Virus record (IMG/VR): IMGVR_UViG_3300031578_004593
Span: 1-23,415 of that record
From: a virus
Direction: 5' to 3' (one strand)
DNA length: 23,415 bases
The notes under the pieces were generated by a model. That model was not told where the DNA came from. It did no database searches and worked only from the letters and a program-made list of their open reading frames with translations. This document shows, one piece after another, positions 1 to 19,038 of this stretch. Every line of letters begins with the position of its first letter. Within the stretch, counting starts at the first letter, position 1. Both the position numbers and the translations under genes were made by a program.

Positions 1-51
1 TCTCCATCTTAAACAATGGAATGAGCCTATTGTGCGTGCCTAAAGTTTTGC

Positions 52-1455
52 CTACTGTTCTTCCGATTCTTTCTTGGAGCGTTTCCATTTTAGTTTCTCG
101 AATACTTTACGTTTCTCAATCTTCTCTGCTTCTAAAGTCCCTATAGGAACGAGATTCGCAGGAACGTAATAAACATCCCCACCTTCGTAAGGCTCTTTGC
201 CTTCCGCAACCAATATCTCATTAGCTGTCCTTGCTCCCATATTGAAATAAGCTTGGTCTATCTCTGCCTGAACTTTCTTGTCCCTAATATCGATGTCCAA
301 GAACTCAAAGGCAAAAGAAGTAATCTGAAATCCTTCCCAAAGTAAAAGCTCATTTATAACCCAAGTAAAATCCCTCTGTCTCGGATTGATAACTGAGTCA
401 AGATAAATCCTGTCTACGTCCTCTGCTACTGTTCCCCCAAGCTGACCTTTCTCAATGATTGAAGCTCGATAAGGCGGAACGTGATGTGCTGTTAATACAT
501 CATCCCTGTTGTCTTTTCTATACACTCTGAATGATGCTTCTTTAGCCTCAACAGATAACCTCTCAAACTTAACCGTTGCTCCCTCAGGCGTAGAGAATAT
601 CATCGTCCTGTGAGGATTCCTCTTAATCTCGGTCTCGAAATAAGCCTGTATCTCCTTCTTCAAATCGGCATCCATATCTACGCCTTCCAAAATAACGGCA
701 TAGGCAGGTATTCCGTGATTCGAAAAGAAATCGAGATTATATTCCTTCTCCTTCATCTCGCCATACATCTGAAAGAGAGCAGGCAACCATTCAGGCAACC
801 CATAATAAGAAGACCTGTAGGTATGCTGTTTTAGCTGAATCAATTCTGTCCCTGCCATATCAGGGTCTACAGCATCAGAAAAGACTCCTGTCTCTTTATT
901 GAGAATCCTTGGGTCTCCCCACTTCTTAAAATATACTTTATTTATTCCTATCTTCTGAACCCATTTCTCTTTGTCTTTGGTAAGTCTAATCGTAGTAGCA
1001 TTAACGTGATAAAGAGCTTTGATTCCTTCTTCCTTTGTAGGGTCTCTAACTACTTCGAAATAGCCATTGCCACACGCTTCATAATCAAGCATAACCTTCT
1101 TGCAGACTGAAGTAATATCTTCTTCTTCATTACACTTATTAAAGAAATCCATCAACTTGCTATAATCTTCATCCGTAGGCTTCTCTCCTTCTACTTCCTT
1201 GAGCTTCCAACCAATCCCTACAGCATCCTGAACCTTAACCCTTACGCAAGAGGAATGAATTACAGAAATATCGAGCCAACTCATCAACTTCAGAAGGTTA
1301 TAAGGAGGGTCTATAACATCTACCGCCCACTTACCTTCTTCGGTAAATTGCCTTGTCTGCGGTATCTCATACTTCTTCAACTCTACCTCATCAAACATCT
1401 TACCGCCTGTAGTCATAAACACTTTTGTTACTTTAGCATCTCTTTTATTAGTCAT
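52..1455 (-). CDS. Phage portal protein (PBSX-type)
   Basis: This 467-residue protein should form the dodecameric ring at the capsid vertex through which DNA is pumped by terminase and to which the neck and tail attach. The length fits the PBSX/HK97-like portal families. Features I recognise include the YYGLPEWLPAL stretch (about residues 217-227), followed by a long helix and DFFSNHGIPAYAV (about 242-254), both typical of PBSX-type portals, and a charged lysine-rich C-terminus. The ATG is preceded by AAGGAG with a 9-base gap. The gene sits 13 bases downstream of the terminase large subunit, the usual terminase-portal order. I see no truncation. Family assignment is firm; the exact structural class is inferred from motif resemblance. 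Confidence 0.93.
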   Translation of the reverse strand: MTNKRDAKVTKVFMTTGGKMFDEVELKKYEIPQTRQFTEEGKWAVDVIDPPYNLLKLMSWLDISVIHSSCVRVKVQDAVGIGWKLKEVEGEKPTDEDYSKLMDFFNKCNEEEDITSVCKKVMLDYEACGNGYFEVVRDPTKEEGIKALYHVNATTIRLTKDKEKWVQKIGINKVYFKKWGDPRILNKETGVFSDAVDPDMAGTELIQLKQHTYRSSYYGLPEWLPALFQMYGEMKEKEYNLDFFSNHGIPAYAVILEGVDMDADLKKEIQAYFETEIKRNPHRTMIFSTPEGATVKFERLSVEAKEASFRVYRKDNRDDVLTAHHVPPYRASIIEKGQLGGTVAEDVDRIYLDSVINPRQRDFTWVINELLLWEGFQITSFAFEFLDIDIRDKKVQAEIDQAYFNMGARTANEILVAEGKEPYEGGDVYYVPANLVPIGTLEAEKIEKRKVFEKLKWKRSKKESEEQ

Positions 1456-1468
1456 AGCTCATCACTCC

Positions 1469-3097
1469 TTATACTATTGATAGTCCTGCTTTTCTAAAGC
1501 CTTTTTCTTTGACCACCAAAGCGTAAACGACTCCTGCTACTGCATCGGCAATATCCTTACTTCCTTTTGGCGGATGGTCAACTTTCTTCCCCTTTATCAG
1601 CTCAAGTCTTTTCAGCTCATCCAAGAACGGAGTATACTTATAGTATCTGACAAGACCTTGATAAATCTCTTCCTTCATTGTCTCATAAGCATCAAGACCT
1701 TCAACCGACTGCTTGCCTGCTGAGAAGCCGAGCTTCTTCAACTGCTGTATCGAACTCGCACTCTGAAATTGGTCATAGGTAACTCCTGAGATTTTGAACC
1801 CCTTATCCCTAATCTCTTTTATTAAATCTATTACTCCTTGAATATCGACCTCTTCCCCTTTGGTAGGCTTTATCCTGTGCATCAAATCTATCACCGCTAA
1901 TCCCTGCTCGTAATGTCCCATAGCCATACCGCAGGCATCGTGAGTAAGTCCAAGGTCTATGTGTAGGTAGTATTTCCTCCCTGAGAACCCCTTAAAAGAT
2001 GCCTTTAATCGCCCAAATTCATCGAAAGGATGGCTTATTTTGATTGTTTCGACTCCTTGGTCATCCTTTACAGGAGAACGCTCTATGAGGCAGTTTTCGA
2101 CCGCAGTCCAATTCTTCATATACGGCTCAAGAGCTAAGCTCGCAATACCTCCCAAATCCCTCCAAGACTTCTCAGGATTCTTCTCAAAATCCCTCTTATA
2201 CTTGTTCGGTATCTGCTCTCCCCTCAGCTCAAAGGTATCCCCATCCTCAATAGCCTTAATATCCTCAGGTATCACTTCCCAAATCTTATGCCTGCGAACA
2301 AACGTCAAAGGGTCATCCTCCCCTTCCTTCGCTTTCCGCTCAATGAAGTCATCTATGTATCGTGGCGAGCTAATCATAACAAGCAAGCCATTCTTATTGA
2401 ACCGAGATTGTATCCTTCTCTTTAATGTGTAGAATATATCTTCAGCGACATCGTGAGCTTCTGTCTCTGTGTAGAATGCGGACTCATCCATTATTCCTAC
2501 TATCAAATTAAACCCTAATGGAAATGTCGAAGCGGAATTAGCAGGTATGATATTGACTCCTTTATGGAATCGAAGCTCTGATAATATCGTAGGGTCAGGC
2601 TTGCCGTATTTCTGAAACCAAATGCTATTAAGGATTCGGCTCTTTACTTCTCCGAAAACGACCTTCTTAGCCTGAAGTCCATTAACTGACATATTCATAA
2701 TCGTGGCAACTGAAGTAGGGTCAAGGTTAAAGGCGGTCAACGGATTCTCAAGGCACAGCAAATTATATGTAAAATAAGATATGATAATCGAAGTTTTGTA
2801 ACTCTTCCCTGTTCCAATAGCCTCATCAAATACCGCTTCTTCATAAGGACAGAAAGCGAACGAATTCTCATCGCAGAACAACGCCCTCAAATCCTCCATC
2901 ACCGCAGGTCTGATATAAGCTCCAAGATTCAAGAACCTATCTGACATAACGAACTCTTCTATGCAAACAGGCTTCTCCAAATACTCCATTCCTTCAAGGC
3001 TTCGCTCAGCCAAGAACAGAGCCGTCTGCACCTGCTCAGGAGTCTTCATCACTTCTGTCAACTTTGGTAGCTCTTGTGTATTGATTTCTTGCATCAT
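1469..3097 (-). CDS. terL: Terminase large subunit (ATPase/nuclease)
   Basis: This is the DNA-packaging motor: an N-terminal ATPase translocates DNA into the prohead and a C-terminal RNase H-like nuclease cuts the concatemer. In the 542 residues I see a Walker A at about 93-101 (AIGTGKSYK), Walker B at about 198-205 (LIVGIMDE), a coupling motif MISSP at about 241-245, and nuclease acidic residues in HIDLGLTHD (D381), VTYDQF (D442) and GSKDIADAV (D515/D519 region). The start has no clear ribosome binding site of its own. Instead its ATG overlaps the stop of the preceding 41-residue ORF (ATGA at 3097-3094), so translational coupling is likely. Two adjacent ATGs (3097 and 3094) are both possible starts. 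Confidence 0.96.
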   Translation of the reverse strand: MMQEINTQELPKLTEVMKTPEQVQTALFLAERSLEGMEYLEKPVCIEEFVMSDRFLNLGAYIRPAVMEDLRALFCDENSFAFCPYEEAVFDEAIGTGKSYKTSIIISYFTYNLLCLENPLTAFNLDPTSVATIMNMSVNGLQAKKVVFGEVKSRILNSIWFQKYGKPDPTILSELRFHKGVNIIPANSASTFPLGFNLIVGIMDESAFYTETEAHDVAEDIFYTLKRRIQSRFNKNGLLVMISSPRYIDDFIERKAKEGEDDPLTFVRRHKIWEVIPEDIKAIEDGDTFELRGEQIPNKYKRDFEKNPEKSWRDLGGIASLALEPYMKNWTAVENCLIERSPVKDDQGVETIKISHPFDEFGRLKASFKGFSGRKYYLHIDLGLTHDACGMAMGHYEQGLAVIDLMHRIKPTKGEEVDIQGVIDLIKEIRDKGFKISGVTYDQFQSASSIQQLKKLGFSAGKQSVEGLDAYETMKEEIYQGLVRYYKYTPFLDELKRLELIKGKKVDHPPKGSKDIADAVAGVVYALVVKEKGFRKAGLSIV

Positions 3098-3219
3098 AAG
3101 AATCTATTGTTACCGCTCTTTCCCCTATATACTATCAACTCGTAAACCCAAACCAAGCAACATACCAATGTCCAAACCGCCAAGAACACTACACCTAAGG
3201 CTAATTTGATATATCGCAT
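3094..3219 (-). CDS. Small membrane protein between terminase subunits
   Basis: This 41-residue protein begins MRYIKLALGV and has one strongly hydrophobic stretch (about residues 5-27, containing VVFLAVWTLVCCLVWV) followed by a short basic tail, which predicts a single transmembrane helix. The ATG is preceded by GGAG with a 7-base gap, inside the end of the terminase small-subunit gene. The gene starts 2 bases after that gene's stop, and its own TGA overlaps the terL ATG (ATGA). Both junctions argue that it is translated. I do not recognise a family. Small membrane proteins at this position could be holin-like or simply serve coupling; nothing seen decides between these. Confidence 0.72.
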   Translation of the reverse strand: MRYIKLALGVVFLAVWTLVCCLVWVYELIVYRGKSGNNRFL

Positions 3220-3221
3220 TT

Positions 3222-3773
3222 CTAAGCTCCATCTCTTACTCCACCATCTTCCACCACAGCCTGCACGCTTTCCTCTGTTCTAACATTCTCTGCTTCTATT
3301 ACCTTTTCCTTCTTCCCTTCAAAGCTTCTCTCCATCCCCCTCAACGTAGCTATCAACGTCTTCTTCTGCTCAGGACTGTATGTCTTCACAACCTGTCTAA
3401 TCTGTGCCGTCTCCATCTCATTCGTGACCTGAACATCTCCCTGCCCTGTAGTTATCTGCTGATTCAACTTCACTAAGTTTCTTCTATCTTGCCACAACTC
3501 AGGAGCTTGATTCGTCAACCAAAATATAGATGCAGTCATATTGCCTCTCAAGGCTTGATTATAGACTGATTTCGTGACACTAATCGTAGCATTCATCTTC
3601 CCTTTTTTTATAGCCTGACATAATTCGCTGTTCCGCTTCTTCCATCTTGCCAATGTCCGAGGACTTATATCCCAATATGTGCAGAGATTTTCTTCCGTAA
3701 ACCCAAGTCCTGCAAGGAGTTTCGCATCTCCCATCAAATCTTCCCTAAATTTAGTCGGTCTACCTGCACCCAT
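3222..3773 (-). CDS. terS: Terminase small subunit-like HTH protein
   Basis: The 183-residue protein opens with GAGRPTKFRED, followed by an HTH segment (about residues 23-50, with EENLCTYWDISPRTLARWKK) and the sequence NQALRGNMTASIFWLTNQAPELWQD (shown in part), which closely resembles small terminase subunits of many siphoviruses. Such proteins recognise the packaging site and modulate TerL. The tail after residue 120 is acidic and lysine-rich, perhaps an oligomerisation or TerL-contact region. It lies directly upstream of the small membrane ORF and terL, matching the usual terS-terL order. The start is ATG at 3773, after a short gap from the previous gene. An alternative would be a generic phage HTH protein, but the position favours TerS. 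Confidence 0.85.
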   Translation of the reverse strand: MGAGRPTKFREDLMGDAKLLAGLGFTEENLCTYWDISPRTLARWKKRNSELCQAIKKGKMNATISVTKSVYNQALRGNMTASIFWLTNQAPELWQDRRNLVKLNQQITTGQGDVQVTNEMETAQIRQVVKTYSPEQKKTLIATLRGMERSFEGKKEKVIEAENVRTEESVQAVVEDGGVRDGA

Positions 3774-3776
3774 TAC

Positions 3777-4367
3777 CTACTCCTTAATTTTGTCATTTTT
3801 GAGTTTCTCCATTTCGAACCCTAAACACTTGATGCTTCCCTGTGGAAAGAACCCCCTAATCTTGGTCACTTTGTAGCCTGTCATCGCTTCTACCTTATGG
3901 AATAACCTTCCCCAAAAGAACTCCTGATGCTTGTGCAAATCAGGTATCTTCATCCTCTTAGGTATATTCAGGCAGGCTTTCTGAAGCGTAGATGCCATCC
4001 TGAACCTACCCTTATGGTAAGTAGCATCGGTCAAAACAAAGGTCTTCCTACCACTTCCTTCCAACCGAACGATGATATTAAAGAACAACTCCCAAGGCGA
4101 CTTGTCCGAATCTATGTCAAAGTAATTATAAGCATCCAAATCATCTGTGAATATCCCTAATCTATTGTCCTTCTTCTTCGTGGTATCCACGAACTTATAC
4201 GGATATTCCTTGTGACTCTCTACCCTACCGCTCTCTTTATAGCACTTCTTAAATATCGCCCTATCACCCTCCTGAAAGAACTCAAGGATTCTATTCTTCT
4301 TGTGCAGAGCCATCATCTCCCTGCGTAGTAATGTCTTCCCTGCTATAAGATAACCGTTATCTATCAT
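3777..4367 (-). CDS. Unknown protein with DIDxxxSPWE motif
   Basis: I take the start as the ATG at 4367, whose ATGA overlaps the stop of the zinc-protein gene; a longer TTG-started version (4379) is less likely. The product is about 196 residues, soluble and basic. The centre reads YNYFDIDSDKSPWELF and is followed by KTFVLTDATYHKGRFRMA. The DIDxxxSPWE pattern recalls the SAM-methyltransferase segment DxDPxGSP seen in Trm1-like enzymes, and an F/V-L-T-D strand would suit a Rossmann-like core. However, no N-terminal glycine-rich SAM motif is obvious. I therefore leave it as unknown, with a methyltransferase-like fold as a hypothesis. It lies between ParB/zinc genes and the terminase genes, so a DNA-related role in packaging is possible. 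Confidence 0.7.
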   Translation of the reverse strand: MIDNGYLIAGKTLLRREMMALHKKNRILEFFQEGDRAIFKKCYKESGRVESHKEYPYKFVDTTKKKDNRLGIFTDDLDAYNYFDIDSDKSPWELFFNIIVRLEGSGRKTFVLTDATYHKGRFRMASTLQKACLNIPKRMKIPDLHKHQEFFWGRLFHKVEAMTGYKVTKIRGFFPQGSIKCLGFEMEKLKNDKIKE

Positions 4368-4606
4368 ATCTTTCTGCAAAACGGACAGTCAGGGTCTTTG
4401 TGTCTCTGAACCAAGACCTCATCTGCTTTCCTCTCAGAATACTGTTCCACAAAATCATAAAGACCACTCACACAATCAGCACAAAAAGCCACTCTTTTCC
4501 CACCTACAAATCCCAACTTACCTCCGTGCCTAATAGGATTGAAGCTATTCCTACATATTGAACACTTCTTCAAAATCGAAGTTAGCGTCTTCGGTCTGTC
4601 GCTCAT
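4364..4606 (-). CDS. Small zinc-binding protein (three CxxC pairs)
   Basis: This 80-residue protein has three CxxC knuckles: C15/C18, C42/C45 and C74/C77. The first two can form one zinc ribbon; the last, at the very C-terminus (DPDCPFCRKI), may form half of another site or a dimer site. No catalytic motif is visible. It starts 3 bases after the ParB-domain gene, with a GAGGGG ribosome binding site inside the end of that gene, and its TGA overlaps the next ATG. It probably binds nucleic acid or a protein partner. The specific role is not recognisable. Confidence 0.75.
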   Translation of the reverse strand: MSDRPKTLTSILKKCSICRNSFNPIRHGGKLGFVGGKRVAFCADCVSGLYDFVEQYSERKADEVLVQRHKDPDCPFCRKI

Positions 4607-4609
4607 TAC

Positions 4610-5188
4610 TTACCCCTCTTTTGCGACTTCTACCTTGATTCCCTTAACACCTCTCAACGGCTGTAAGGCTTCTATCACCTTATGCCTAAGAGAATCATCA
4701 AATCTTAGGACTACCCAATTCGGCTCATATATATCCTCAAAAAGAACATCCTCAAGAGTAGGTATCTCTTCATTAAGCTTGAACATCAGCTCTACATCAA
4801 GACCTACCAACCTGAGCAATTCGTCATCCAAATTAGCAAGCAAGTCTAAATCATTATGCCCTGTGTTATTATTAAGCCTCAGATTCAGCTCCTGCTCAGT
4901 CTTCAGGTCTTCGATGTAAACATACACTACAGGTATCTTCTCTATTCCTAAAGACTTGGCAACCCTTAACCGCAGATGCCCACCAATTACAATGTTCTTT
5001 CTCTGCTCAGCACCATTGACTATCAAAGGGTCAACGATTCCAAACTTATGAACCGATGCCTTGATATTCAAAAACTCTTCATCTGTCACAGAACGAGGAT
5101 TATACTCTGAGTCTTTCAGAGTCCCTGCTTCTACTTCTACAATTTCTAACTTCTTCTTTTCTTCTTTCGGAGTTTTAGATTCTGTCAT
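4610..5188 (-). CDS. ParB/Srx-type N-terminal domain protein
   Basis: The 192-residue protein contains a classic ParB-N domain at about residues 18-115: NPR (30-32), HKFGIVDPLIVN (47-58) and the nucleotide/phosphate-binding motif IGGHLRLRVAKSLG (68-81). It lacks the C-terminal HTH of chromosomal ParB. Similar standalone domains are common beside phage terminase genes and are often annotated as ParB-like nucleases; whether this one binds or cuts DNA cannot be told from sequence. It is the first full gene after the 5327-5355 promoter and leader/terminator, with AGGGAGG five bases or so ahead of its ATG. Its C-terminal 70 residues are not recognised. Confidence 0.87.
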   Translation of the reverse strand: MTESKTPKEEKKKLEIVEVEAGTLKDSEYNPRSVTDEEFLNIKASVHKFGIVDPLIVNGAEQRKNIVIGGHLRLRVAKSLGIEKIPVVYVYIEDLKTEQELNLRLNNNTGHNDLDLLANLDDELLRLVGLDVELMFKLNEEIPTLEDVLFEDIYEPNWVVLRFDDSLRHKVIEALQPLRGVKGIKVEVAKEG

Positions 5189-5200
5189 CTCGCCTCCCTA

Positions 5201-5238
5201 AAAACAAAAAAGACTAACCGCAACTATTCAGTTAGCCT
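5201..5238 (-). terminator. Intrinsic terminator in the leader of the packaging operon
   Basis: On the minus strand the arm at 5237-5229 pairs with 5220-5212 (GGCTAACTG with CGGTTAGTC, nine pairs with two wobbles, eight-base loop). It is followed at once by TTTTTTGTTTTT (5211-5200). This is a good rho-independent terminator fold. Unusually, it lies downstream of a near-perfect promoter and upstream of the ParB-domain gene, and the leader ORF stop codon lies in its loop, so it looks like an attenuator rather than an end-of-operon terminator. Confidence 0.75.
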
Positions 5239-5277
5239 CCTATATTCTTTCAGTCTCAGGGTATAAAAAACCGTCAT
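5224..5277 (-). CDS. 17-codon leader peptide ORF
   Basis: The ORF encodes MTVFYTLRLKEYRRLTE and has a perfect AGGAGG site (5288-5283) five bases ahead of its ATG. It lies wholly between the 5327-5355 promoter and the ParB-domain gene. Two adjacent AGG codons near the end of the ORF form a second AGGAGG sequence. The last codons cover the left arm of the terminator, and the TAG (5226-5224) sits in its loop. A ribosome reaching the stop would mask the left arm and could prevent termination. No family is expected for such a peptide. That it is translated is inference from the ribosome binding site and arrangement. Confidence 0.55.
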   Translation of the reverse strand: MTVFYTLRLKEYRRLTE

Positions 5278-5326
5278 CACTTCCTCCTATTCGAAGAAAG
5301 CAGACATCCCTAAGATGATTATTATT

Positions 5327-5355
5327 ATTATATCTCAAGTTTTCTCTTTTGTCAA
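5327..5355 (-). promoter_or_regulatory. Perfect-consensus sigma-70 promoter for packaging operon
   Basis: On the minus strand TTGACA (5355-5350) and TATAAT (5332-5327) are separated by exactly 17 bases. The -35 box overlaps the TGA stop of the upstream gene. Transcription should start near 5320, giving a leader of about 130 bases before the ParB-domain start codon. Such a strong match usually means high basal activity, which makes the downstream terminator meaningful. Confidence 0.88.
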
Positions 5356-5765
5356 GCTTTTTCAGCTTCTTGTTTGTCTTTACTCTCTGTATTGTTTTCT
5401 TTATCCCAAGCTGACTGTGCTTCTTTGAGCCTATTCCATACCCTTATTACTAACTCATTAGCTTGAGGGTCAGGAGTATGCTCGTTCCAACACTTCATCA
5501 AGAACTTAAAATCCTCATACTCAAGCTTCGCCTTCTCCGCTTCTCCAACCTTGATAGCATTCATCAAATCTGAGCGAACCTTGTAAAGCTGACTATGCTC
5601 CGCCATCTTCAAACCATTCGACTTCTTGCCTTTTTGAACAATAGCATTAACTGCTACACTCACGAACAACTCCTCAGGTTTCATATCCTTCGGAAGATTC
5701 GTCAGTCCCTCTGACTCAATCTTCATATTGATGTAGAAGGGATTCTTCTCTTCATTCTTGCTCAT
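5352..5765 (-). CDS. Unknown phage protein
   Basis: This is a 137-residue, highly charged, probably helical protein with no membrane segment. The middle (residues about 58-110) contains KVRSDLMNAIKVGEAEKAKL and WNEHTPDPQANELVIRVWN; the C-terminal 25 residues are a low-complexity acidic/lysine tail. It resembles the style of small phage proteins that carry an HTH-free helical regulator or assembly chaperone, but I do not recognise the family. It starts by ATGA overlap with the NRS/ER-like gene, with GGAGGC ahead of the ATG, and its stop codon forms part of the downstream promoter's -35 box. It is therefore the last gene of the sugar-nucleotide block. Confidence 0.7.
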   Translation of the reverse strand: MSKNEEKNPFYINMKIESEGLTNLPKDMKPEELFVSVAVNAIVQKGKKSNGLKMAEHSQLYKVRSDLMNAIKVGEAEKAKLEYEDFKFLMKCWNEHTPDPQANELVIRVWNRLKEAQSAWDKENNTESKDKQEAEKA

Positions 5766-6634
5766 AATGAGCCTCCTTTTTTCTGACTTCCATCTAAGCG
5801 TTTCTTACCTTCAGCAATAAGCATCGCTTCGATTCTGTCTCTAATGTTAGGCATTACAAATCCTTCATCCTCTAATTTCTTTGTAGATAAAATACAATTC
5901 GACCTACCTGCTTTCAAGGTCTTCGCCAATGCTTCATAGCTTATAATCTCATACTTCAAATCCTTATAGACCCACTTCTTATACATCTCCAATATTTCTT
6001 CGTTCGTCATCGAACCTTTATTAACGACATTCCACGTTCCTGTATGTCCTTTCTCAGCCAAGAACTTAATCGCTTCCACCAAGTCTGCAAGGTAAGTCAT
6101 CGAATTCGGCAGGCTACAAATCGGCTTGCCTGCATAAGTATATTTCAAAAGCTTTGAAATCAGACTCCTGTCACCCATATACTCATCAATCGGCATCCTG
6201 ATTCTTAAAACACAACACTCAGAGAAACCCTCCAAGATGTCCTGAGACCATTTCTTTGTCCTTGCATAAAAGCTTCCATCAAAATCAGGAACGTCTTCTT
6301 CTGTATAATCTTGGTCATACCCATCATAAATACAACCACTCCCTATGTGAATCCAATACTGCTTTATCTCATAACACAGCTCGGCTATCATAGTAGGTAT
6401 CCCAACATTAGCTCCAAACACAACATCCTTATGGTCTTCGCACCAATCCACATTCGGCTTCCCTGTCTTACCTGAACAGTTAATCAAAACGTGACTCGGA
6501 TACTCCTTCAAAAGCAAATTCTTTAAGACATCAGCACTCTCTATATACCCTTGAATCAGCTTTGCGTTCGGAAGCTTAGTAGCAAGATAACCACCGATGT
6601 AACCACTCCCAATTATTAAGAAATTAAGAGCCAT
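5762..6634 (-). CDS. NRS/ER-like sugar-nucleotide 3,5-epimerase/4-reductase (RmlD superfamily)
   Basis: This 290-residue short-chain dehydrogenase-type protein has an NAD(P) loop IGSGYIGGYL (8-17), PNVDWCEDHKD (60-70), GSGCIYDGYD (98-107), an active-site YARTK (Y123, K127), LRIRMPIDE (143-151), LPNSMTYL (175-182) and GRSNCILSTKKL (243-254). These stretches match plant NRS/ER enzymes (UDP-4-keto-6-deoxyglucose 3,5-epimerase/4-reductase, as in RHM C-terminal domains) better than classic RmlD, whose equivalent of the SGCIYDG segment is usually STDYVFDG. NRS/ER enzymes epimerise and reduce in one polypeptide. With RmlA and RmlB nearby and no RmlC visible, it could finish dTDP-L-rhamnose. Substrate and bifunctionality are inferred. 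The start has GGAGGGTAAGAAG ahead of the ATG and overlaps the upstream gene by 11 bases. Confidence 0.88.
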   Translation of the reverse strand: MALNFLIIGSGYIGGYLATKLPNAKLIQGYIESADVLKNLLLKEYPSHVLINCSGKTGKPNVDWCEDHKDVVFGANVGIPTMIAELCYEIKQYWIHIGSGCIYDGYDQDYTEEDVPDFDGSFYARTKKWSQDILEGFSECCVLRIRMPIDEYMGDRSLISKLLKYTYAGKPICSLPNSMTYLADLVEAIKFLAEKGHTGTWNVVNKGSMTNEEILEMYKKWVYKDLKYEIISYEALAKTLKAGRSNCILSTKKLEDEGFVMPNIRDRIEAMLIAEGKKRLDGSQKKGGSL

Positions 6635-11222: not shown

Positions 11223-11263
11223 AAGTTATCCCTCGTTTACAGTTTACAATATAACGTAAGCTT

Positions 11264-11293
11264 AGAATAACACGAATGTTAGGAATTAGTCAA
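11264..11293 (-). promoter_or_regulatory. Sigma-70-type promoter for the rml block
   Basis: TTGACT (11293-11288) and TATTCT (11269-11264) are 18 bases apart on the minus strand. The predicted start near 11257 leaves a leader of about 35 bases before rmlB. In that leader TGTAAAC occurs twice in tandem on the minus strand (about 11234-11248), which could be a small operator. Confidence 0.65.
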
Positions 11294-11302
11294 GTAATTT
11301 CT

Positions 11303-11315
11303 TAACAATTTGTTA
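11303..11315. promoter_or_regulatory. Palindrome upstream of the rml promoter
   Basis: TAACAA-N-TTGTTA, a six-base inverted repeat around one central base, lies about ten bases upstream of the -35 box. It has no U-run for termination, so an operator or activator site is more likely, for example for the HTH protein encoded at 13313-13570. AT-rich palindromes also arise by chance in such sequence. Confidence 0.35.
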
Positions 11316-11328
11316 CTATTCTGTTTTG

Positions 11329-16227: not shown

Positions 16228-16263
16228 ATTAGCCTCCTTTACATAGAGAACGACTTTACCTAT

Positions 16264-16292
16264 ATTATATTGGATGTTATAGTTTTAGTCAA
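16264..16292 (-). promoter_or_regulatory. Sigma-70-type promoter for recombination operon
   Basis: TTGACT (16292-16287) and TATAAT (16269-16264) are 17 bases apart on the minus strand. Transcription should start near 16257, about 30 bases before the Rad52-like gene. No terminator or operator is evident between this promoter and the upstream SpoVG gene. Confidence 0.85.
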
Positions 16293-16336
16293 GTGAAATT
16301 ATGTTTTAATTAGGTAGGAATTTTAGGATAGACTTC

Positions 16337-16621
16337 TTAAAGTAATTCTTCAGGAGTAGGCTCTTCTTCCTCTGTCCCTGTAAATCTCTTAATCACTTCT
16401 TCATTGATTGATTTGCGGAGTGCTTCATCTCTAATTGTCACGATAGGATACCATTGCCCATCGCCACCTTTGGTCTGTGGCATAGCAACGAAGATTCCAT
16501 TCTGTCCTTGAACTACTCTACAACCTCTAATCACTATCTTATCACTCAAGGATATATCGCAGAATGCTTTTAAGGCTTTTGATTTGTCTGTAAGCTCTGT
16601 CAAACGGATAACTTTAATCAT
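16337..16621 (-). CDS. SpoVG-family RNA-/DNA-binding protein
   Basis: The 94-residue protein matches SpoVG along its length: an N-terminal strand VIRLTEL, then ALKAFCDISLSDKIVIRGCR and VVQGQNGIFVAMPQTKG (the family's DG.NGLFVAMPS block), and a C-terminal helix EALRKSINEEVIKRF. SpoVG in Firmicutes and spirochaetes is a site-specific nucleic-acid-binding regulator of sporulation, cell division and virulence. A phage copy could modulate host or phage transcripts. Its ATG overlaps the stop of the preceding small gene (ATGA), and GGAGAAAG lies ahead. It is the last gene before the recombination promoter. Confidence 0.88.
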   Translation of the reverse strand: MIKVIRLTELTDKSKALKAFCDISLSDKIVIRGCRVVQGQNGIFVAMPQTKGGDGQWYPIVTIRDEALRKSINEEVIKRFTGTEEEEPTPEELL

Positions 16622-16970: not shown

Positions 16971-17235
16971 CTTGACCGCCCTTCATTATCTCATAATTCC
17001 TATATATGAACAACAGCATATACCTTCCCCAACACATAAAATTAAAAGTCTTCTGTTTCATATAATGAGATTTCCACTCCATTGTTTTCAAGAAAGAATT
17101 TACATATTCCTGAATGATTTGGTCTGCCCTCTGCCAACCCCAATCTCTTGCCTCTAATCTTGAAGTCCTCCTTGCCTTGATAACAAGCTCTATCTCAAGG
17201 AGAGCCATCTTATCTGCCCATTGCTTAGTAGTCAC
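16963..17235 (-). CDS. 90-residue unknown protein
   Basis: The start is GTG at 17235, overlapping the previous stop as GTGA, with GAGGTAATAGG ahead. The N-terminal half is a charged helix; the C-terminal half is aromatic and hydrophobic (FNFMCWGRYMLLFIYRNYEI) and might contact a membrane. No family is recognised. Confidence 0.6.
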   Translation of the reverse strand: MTTKQWADKMALLEIELVIKARRTSRLEARDWGWQRADQIIQEYVNSFLKTMEWKSHYMKQKTFNFMCWGRYMLLFIYRNYEIMKGGQDV

Positions 17236-17456
17236 CCTATTACCTCAACTAAACCAAAATCAAAATTCTGCTTTGTTATCCAAAAATCCGTTCCATTCAT
17301 AGATAAGTAGACTATCTTCTGACCGCCTGCTAAGGTATTCTCCCCTACATAAGTAACAATCGAACCTAAAGGAATCGAGAATGGCTTATCATCCTTATCT
17401 AATGGAGAGATAAGAGACCAACAAAGACCATAAATAGTCCTATATCTTTTCTGCAT
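17232..17456 (-). CDS. Small unknown protein downstream of structured RNA
   Basis: I favour the ATG at 17456 (74 residues). A GTG start at 17513 would add 19 hydrophobic residues that could be a membrane anchor, but that extension runs through the structured element at 17464-17592, and neither start has a normal ribosome site. The body contains PFSIPLGSIVTYVGENTLAG and a beta-rich end, suggesting a small SH3-like barrel. If the ATG is correct, initiation occurs 8 bases after the closing stem of the RNA fold, so the fold could control translation. No family is recognised. Confidence 0.55.
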   Translation of the reverse strand: MQKRYRTIYGLCWSLISPLDKDDKPFSIPLGSIVTYVGENTLAGGQKIVYLSMNGTDFWITKQNFDFGLVEVIG

Positions 17457-17463
17457 AATATTG

Positions 17464-17592
17464 GAGAGGTATCCTATGGCGAGTAGAAAAAATCCACCAA
17501 AAACAACTCGCACTCTCGGTCTAAAAAGTCTCTTGCGAGACAGATTGGATTGGATTTAGAGCCTCAGCAATAGAGCATAGGATAACGCTCTC
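17464..17592. ncRNA. Candidate structured RNA: compact three-way junction
   Basis: Three helices close on each other with only one unpaired junction base. P1: 17464-17468 with 17588-17592 and 17470-17478 with 17576-17584 (5 + 9 pairs). P2: 17479-17484 with 17506-17511 (6 pairs, 21-base loop). P3: 17513-17516 with 17572-17575, then 17518-17525 with 17555-17563 (one bulge), capped by a hairpin 17528-17532/17537-17541. Only base 17512 is unpaired at the junction. The pairs are Watson-Crick, so strand cannot be decided from wobbles. As part of the minus-strand transcript it would be an intercistronic or 5' element of the gene at 17456; on the plus strand its P2 loop would be A-rich, as is typical of RNAs. 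It does not match a tRNA or any class I recall. Confidence 0.6.
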
Positions 17593-17599
17593 GTTTCCT

Positions 17600-17791
17600 T
17601 TAGTCGTTTAATCCAAGATAATTAGCATTATTGTAAGGATTACCATCCCCTGAAACATCCTTGTAATGCCCACTCACATACGTCCCATCACTTCTTGAAT
17701 AAGGACTAATGTAACGTATTTCTGCCTGTGCTACTGAGCAGAATGCGAACAGAGCAATTACCAATACCATCAACATAGCAACTGTCTTCAT
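17600..17791 (-). CDS. Small exported protein
   Basis: This 63-residue protein has a clear signal peptide (MKTVAMLMVLVIALFAFC, cleavage likely after AQA near residue 23) and a mature part of about 40 residues rich in Ser, Tyr, Gly and Asn (SRSDGTYVSGHYKDVSGDG). That mature segment resembles the YVxGYxRxDGTYVxxHYR motif found in many small exported bacterial proteins of unknown function. The residue before the Cys is Phe, so a lipoprotein is unlikely. It ends 8 bases before the structured RNA. Confidence 0.75.
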   Translation of the reverse strand: MKTVAMLMVLVIALFAFCSVAQAEIRYISPYSRSDGTYVSGHYKDVSGDGNPYNNANYLGLND

Positions 17792-18563: not shown

Positions 18564-18892
18564 AGCTCCAACTTCAACTGTTCCTTCTCAACCTTATCAA
18601 TTCTTATCGGATAATCTATTAACTGAAAAGGCTTTGCTCCTGCGAACTTCGATGGAATCATCTTCTGATGAGACATTTTCCCTAATGTTCTAAGCTCCTC
18701 AGGAGATAGCGTCATCGTGCCTTTCACTCCTGTTTCTTCTGAAAAAGTAAATCTAACAGGATTATGATTCTTAATATAATCTCTAACATTATAATCCCTA
18801 AGAGAAGCTTTACCTTGAAAAAGTTTTTTGATATGCTCCTCTACTAATTCACCATACTTCGCCTTCTGCCTTCTCTGACCTTTATTTCCCAT
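18560..18892 (-). CDS. 110-residue unknown protein
   Basis: This is a basic soluble protein that starts MGNKGQRRQKAKYGEL; its middle (NPVRFTFSEETGVKGTMTLS) is strand-like. The start overlaps the end of the 48-residue gene by 11 bases, with AAGGAGGGAAG ahead of the ATG. No family is recognised; charge suggests possible nucleic-acid contact. Confidence 0.62.
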   Translation of the reverse strand: MGNKGQRRQKAKYGELVEEHIKKLFQGKASLRDYNVRDYIKNHNPVRFTFSEETGVKGTMTLSPEELRTLGKMSHQKMIPSKFAGAKPFQLIDYPIRIDKVEKEQLKLEL

Positions 18893-19028
18893 CTTCCCTC
18901 CTTAAATATTTCTTGAAGAATCTCTCCAACCTTCGATACCAAAGATAGTATTCCTCCCTGTCAATGGTCAACATACTAATTATCAAAACTTTCTTCTTGT
19001 CCACAACCTGCGTAATTATCTTAAACAT
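18882..19028 (-). CDS. 48-residue unknown protein
   Basis: The ORF begins MFKIITQVVDKKKVLIISML and has an Arg/Tyr-rich amphipathic C-terminus (EYYLWYRRLERFFKKYLRR). GAGGGTAGATTG precedes the ATG, and the gene overlaps the next one by 11 bases. The cationic aromatic helix could be membrane-active. It is a small but plausible gene. Confidence 0.55.
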   Translation of the reverse strand: MFKIITQVVDKKKVLIISMLTIDREEYYLWYRRLERFFKKYLRREDGK

Positions 19029-19038
19029 CAATCTACCC

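Follow-up and report, generated by a model that had tools for sequence, protein, structure and literature searches.

The question raised by this locus is whether a stretch of phage DNA that can fold strongly, lying between two genes, acts as an RNA, and on which strand. The window (the whole stretch of DNA analysed) is a record of 23,415 bases from an uncultured tailed phage. It encodes a terminase large subunit, a portal protein and a terminase small subunit, and all of its called genes are on the minus strand. A second contig, of 16 kb, is a 99.75% match to window positions 1-6097 and stops short of the region 17464-17592. The foldable block occupies most of the gap 17457-17599, which, alone among the window's gaps of more than 100 nt, holds no promoter-like sequence and no small ORF. 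The long gaps 5189-5351, 11223-11328 and 16228-16336 have promoter-like sequences, and the gaps 3098-3221 and 18893-19038 are readable as small ORFs. If the block were removed, 14 nt of the gap would remain, a length similar to that of the neighbouring gaps (20-25 nt or less). A search for tRNA and tmRNA genes found none. The features discussed here are as follows.

17232-17456, minus strand: downstream gene, 74 aa from ATG 17456, without a proximal Shine-Dalgarno (SD) sequence; the coding signal starts at this ATG
17457-17463, minus strand: 7-nt spacer CAATATT between P1 and the start codon
17464-17592: foldable block of 129 nt, with three predicted helices on the + strand and only P1 on the minus strand
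17464-17478: low-coordinate arm of P1, GAGAGG-TATCCTATG on the + strand
17479-17511, + strand only: P2 hairpin, 6 pairs (17479-17484 with 17506-17511) and a 21-nt loop
17513-17561, + strand only: P3 and its capping hairpin, the outer four pairs weak
17528-17532 with 17537-17541, + strand: capping hairpin of P3
17562-17575, + strand: junction segment of 14 nt, single-stranded or holding a 3-bp P4
17576-17592: high-coordinate arm of P1, CATAGGATA-AC-GCTCTC on the + strand
17524-17541, minus strand: terminator-like hairpin GTCTC-GCAA-GAGAC followed by T5, an alternative to the P1 fold
17596-17600, minus strand: SD-like AAGGA, proposed as the remote ribosome site; it overlaps the TAA with which the upstream gene stops
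17600-17791, minus strand: upstream gene, 63 aa, with a putative signal peptide and a SDGTYVSGHYKD..GNPYNNANYLG motif

Several other parts of the window are of interest in their own right. On the minus strand of 5189-5351 a consensus promoter (TTGACA-N17-TATAAT) is followed by a leader with AGGAGG and a 17-codon ORF (MTVFYTLRLKEYRRLTE) and then by a strong terminator. This arrangement stands directly ahead of a ParB-like gene and resembles either an attenuator leader or the gene of a small RNA. Uncalled minus-strand ORFs are possible at 3094-3219 (a hydrophobic protein of 41 aa that overlaps the start of the terminase) and at about 18882-19028 (a protein of about 48 aa). A phage-encoded SpoVG homologue (Pfam PF04026, E 3e-16) at 16337-16621 adjoins a Rad52-like recombinase and a PD-(D/E)XK nuclease.

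The three-helix fold proposed in the initial annotation is recovered as a prediction on the + strand, where P1, P2, P3 and the cap fold at -40.2 kcal/mol. The z-score is -4.1 (0/200 shuffles) or -4.2 (0/400 shuffles); an earlier value of -7.9, from 20 shuffles, was noise. Predicted probabilities on this strand are 0.99 for P2, 0.93 for inner P3, 0.99 for the cap and 0.75 for outer P1. The minus strand folds with equal energy at z -3.0 to -3.2, P2 has a probability of 0.09 there, and the three G-U pairs of P3 are possible on the + strand only. In these predictions the three-way junction exists on the + strand only, and a minus-strand transcript keeps only P1. The junction is also looser than first described. 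Twelve P3 pairs had been counted, of which the inner ones hold and the outer four (17513-16 with 17558-61) reach a probability of only 0.31. Base 17512 had been called the only unpaired base, but the 14 nt at 17562-17575 are in the junction as well; a possible fourth helix of 3 bp within them (17563-65 with 17573-75) has a probability of 0.39. The fold is real as a prediction, ordinary in its predicted strength and unusual in its place.

The gene following the block on the minus strand appears to begin at ATG 17456. Codon usage from this ATG is coding-like (0.20, compared to 0.24 +/- 0.19 for coding sequence), and that of the 19-codon extension up to GTG 17513 is non-coding (-0.39), which led to rejection of the longest-ORF start and agrees with the earlier statement that the block encodes no convincing protein. 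The AlphaFold model of the 93-aa frame is of low confidence (pLDDT 57.6) and was set aside. The sequence ahead of the start codon is GGATACCTCTCCAATATT-ATG, in which the best SD match within 18 nt upstream is 3 nt long. The gene had been said to lack a ribosome site, and for the proximal sequence this is true. Most genes of the phage have an SD at normal distance, and this gene is among the few without a proximal one.

On the far side of the block, an SD-like AAGGA overlaps the stop at the end of the upstream gene. Relatives of that gene occur in L187 and L188, where the normal ribosome binding site of the next gene overlaps the stop at the equivalent place (TAAAAGGAGAAAACATG and TAAAAAAGGAGGGAAATATG). 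Relatives of the 63-aa protein in viral contigs share 39-61% identity with it and occur without the block and without the downstream gene; no relatives of the downstream 74-aa protein were found. A 5-nt SD match is found in 7.4% of random 10-nt stretches. In two other contigs (L199 and L200, about 3182-3300) relatives of the 63-aa protein are directly followed by an imperfect hairpin of great length, with -55 kcal/mol across 200 nt; it is not homologous to the block.

The minus-strand layout is TAAAGGAAAC-[GAGAG ... CTCTC]-CAATATT-ATG, where the bracket is the block closed by P1. In the linear sequence 139 nt separate AAGGA from the start codon, and the P1-closed block begins 3 nt after AAGGA and ends 7 nt ahead of the ATG. 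The block could be read as lying between two cistrons of the minus-strand mRNA and dividing the ribosome site of the gene at 17456 in two. Closure of the 14-pair P1 helix would set the 129 nt aside as a side domain, and AAGGA and AUG would then be separated by 3 + 7 = 10 unpaired nt instead of 139 nt. With both in reach, a 30S subunit could engage AAGGA and AUG at once and initiate at 17456, with initiation coupled to translation of the upstream gene. The block may have arisen by insertion into a normal ribosome site, or it may have grown gradually. Since the genes are co-directional, we infer that AAGGA and the gene at 17456 are on one transcript; that the mRNA is produced, that P1 forms in the cell and that the ribosome uses AAGGA are each likewise inferred. 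The P1 bridge, not the three-way junction, would be the working part, because the minus-strand transcript is predicted to keep only P1.

A spacing of 10 nt falls inside the range of 7-11 nt counted from the sequences for AAGGA-type SDs at other genes of the phage. The outer pairs of P1 have probabilities of 0.92-0.97 on the minus strand in contexts of 163-221 nt. At 37 C these values fall in longer contexts, to about 0.45 in 321 nt and 0.05-0.54 in 501 nt; at 15 C the 321-nt context gives 0.91. AAGGA is unpaired with a probability of 0.23-0.82 depending on context and is partly paired in some. When the 129 nt were shuffled, bridging of at least 0.9 arose in 5 of 600 cases. Among 29 junctions with an SD after the stop and no proximal SD, the one at the block was the only one bridged (0.69; the next best reached 0.16). 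These results suggest, tentatively, a split ribosome site on the minus-strand mRNA as the most explanatory reading, although on balance a doubtful one. The layout came to notice post hoc, AAGGA makes only a modest SD, P1 weakens in long contexts at 37 C, no homologues were found, and the + strand gives the better fold (z -4.2 versus -3.2) and is the only one with the G-U pairs of P3. The 129-nt side domain is also far larger than in known cases; we know of no split ribosome site as large as this. The fuller version of the proposal seems unlikely: between a stop-overlapping SD and a start codon, an inserted domain of several helices and about 129 nt would fold aside, and ribosomes would initiate as though it were not there. 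Such a domain would possibly be the scar of an inserted element, tolerated because it is foldable.

Homologues of the block were sought in Rfam and in phage, plasmid, viral-contig and genome collections, and none were found. A search of the window with the covariance models of Rfam 15 gave 0 matches at the gathering threshold and no relevant match up to E = 10, and blastn against phages and plasmids found none. A covariance model made from the single sequence recovered only the block itself from 85 + 9 phage loci, and gene order around the gap is not shared by 80 loci with Rad52-like neighbours. A 15-mer from P1/P2 occurs in 56 stretches of viral contigs without conserved structure, the best of them inside coding sequence. 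The pattern of the P1 arms (9-bp arms) had 2 matches among 2.9 million viral contigs and 33 among 84,980 genomes, with unrelated interiors. One of the pattern-selected loci matched the covariance model weakly (E 0.11) and is a palindrome from Cytophagales. Three copies of a palindromic element of about 118 bp, with ends TTTAAACCCTATCCTATGGATA, are present in one uncultured Cytophagales genome; it is likely a miniature inverted-repeat element unrelated to the window. A Clostridiaceae MAG and an Anaerosalibacter share a near-identical palindromic stretch of about 120 nt in opposite orientation, which is open in no frame.

The main rival to the split ribosome site, and in our estimate just as likely, is chance: the gap would be non-coding DNA, decayed or recently acquired, that happens to hold an inverted repeat without RNA function, and the fold would be an accident in a genome where such z-scores are not rare. 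The initial annotation considered the pairing unlikely by chance, which is overstated. Minus-strand coding stretches of the same contig (at 16144, 16064, 13344 and 22864) have z-scores of -4.0 to -5.2, equal to or stronger than that of the block. Among 92 gaps of 100-200 nt from phages with a related Rad52-like gene, 12 on the sense and 9 on the antisense strand reach z <= -3, so that about one in ten comparable gaps folds equally well. The entire gap at the block has a z-score of only -2.5 (sense) and -3.3 (antisense), and the failed homologue searches also fit chance. A 9+5 bp inverted repeat of the P1 kind is expected 0.12 times per shuffled window. Against chance, the fold coincides with the sole long gap that lacks both a promoter and an ORF, and it is bordered directly by an SD-like sequence at one end and a start codon at the other. 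If the split ribosome site is not true, the block is a strong-looking fold in a phage gap that is within the range of comparable gaps and coding sequence.

The remaining explanations are less likely than either of these. The block may be a small mobile or inserted element of the miniature inverted-repeat type that landed in a ribosome site, P1 being its terminal inverted repeat. Taking out 17464-17592 restores a 14-nt gap with normal SD-ATG spacing, and the ends form an imperfect 17-bp inverted repeat. However, no target-site duplication is seen by eye, no second copy was found in the window (the sole other copy of the low-coordinate P1 arm there is its own partner arm), the arm scans of viral contigs and genomes gave only unrelated matches, and multiple copies with the same terminal repeats, as expected of miniature inverted-repeat elements, were found in none of the window, viral contigs and genomes; we consider an insertion improbable. 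A minus-strand terminator or attenuator, in which transcription would be stopped or metered by the hairpin at 17524-17541 in competition with the P1 fold, is more improbable still. This hairpin was called terminator-like, and its cGCAAg loop is a stable GNRA loop on the minus strand only, but its stem has just 5 pairs, its probability is 0.03-0.31 in 37 C ensembles, 0.7 such matches are expected by chance in the scanned region, and the five genes downstream have no promoter of their own before the gap 16228-16336. Least probable of all is a free RNA from the + strand that would be antisense to the leader of the 17456 gene and would fold into the three-way junction as drawn. The best fold is on that strand, with P2, inner P3 and the cap above 0.9 and the three G-U pairs of P3 possible only there, and a CATAAT box is present 5 nt upstream of 17465. 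Yet no promoter-like hexamer pair was found near 17464 on the + strand, no + strand gene is called, no terminator-like site was found near the 3' end, and searches gave neither an Rfam match nor homologues. With modest confidence the split ribosome site is favoured over this RNA. Of the two options offered initially, the free RNA has poor support; the better fit is control of the gene at 17456 by an intercistronic element.

Some features of the block recall known systems. Like the intrinsic terminators and attenuators of phage operons, it has a GC-rich hairpin followed by T5 on the sense strand, but here the stem is very short and is rarely formed in the predicted ensemble. The ribosome binding site of E. 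coli thrS is split into two segments, and the ribosome accommodates the folded domain that lies between them (PMC3936740), as would be the case here; thrS is an autoregulated host operator, whereas nothing in the block suggests a protein ligand. In phage T4, RNA structures between SD and AUG shorten the spacing from 22 to 5 nt at gene 38 and from 27 to 11 nt at gene 25, as shown through mutation and probing (PMC3014915). As at these T4 genes (gene 25 at the gene 26-25 junction), the putative SD and the AUG of the gene at 17456 are too distant from each other in an intercistronic position of a phage operon, and a helix between them would restore functional spacing, here by prediction from 139 nt down to 10 nt. 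The T4 structures are short hairpins proven via mutation and DMS probing, whereas the block is a 129-nt domain known from prediction, of which only P1 is well predicted on the sense strand and for which no relatives were found. If the reading is true, such genes would escape gene finders and ribosome binding site models that look for an SD no more than about 15 nt from the start, and the split ribosome site of T4 genes 25 and 38, known with hairpins of less than 30 nt, would be extended to a domain that measures well over 100 nt.
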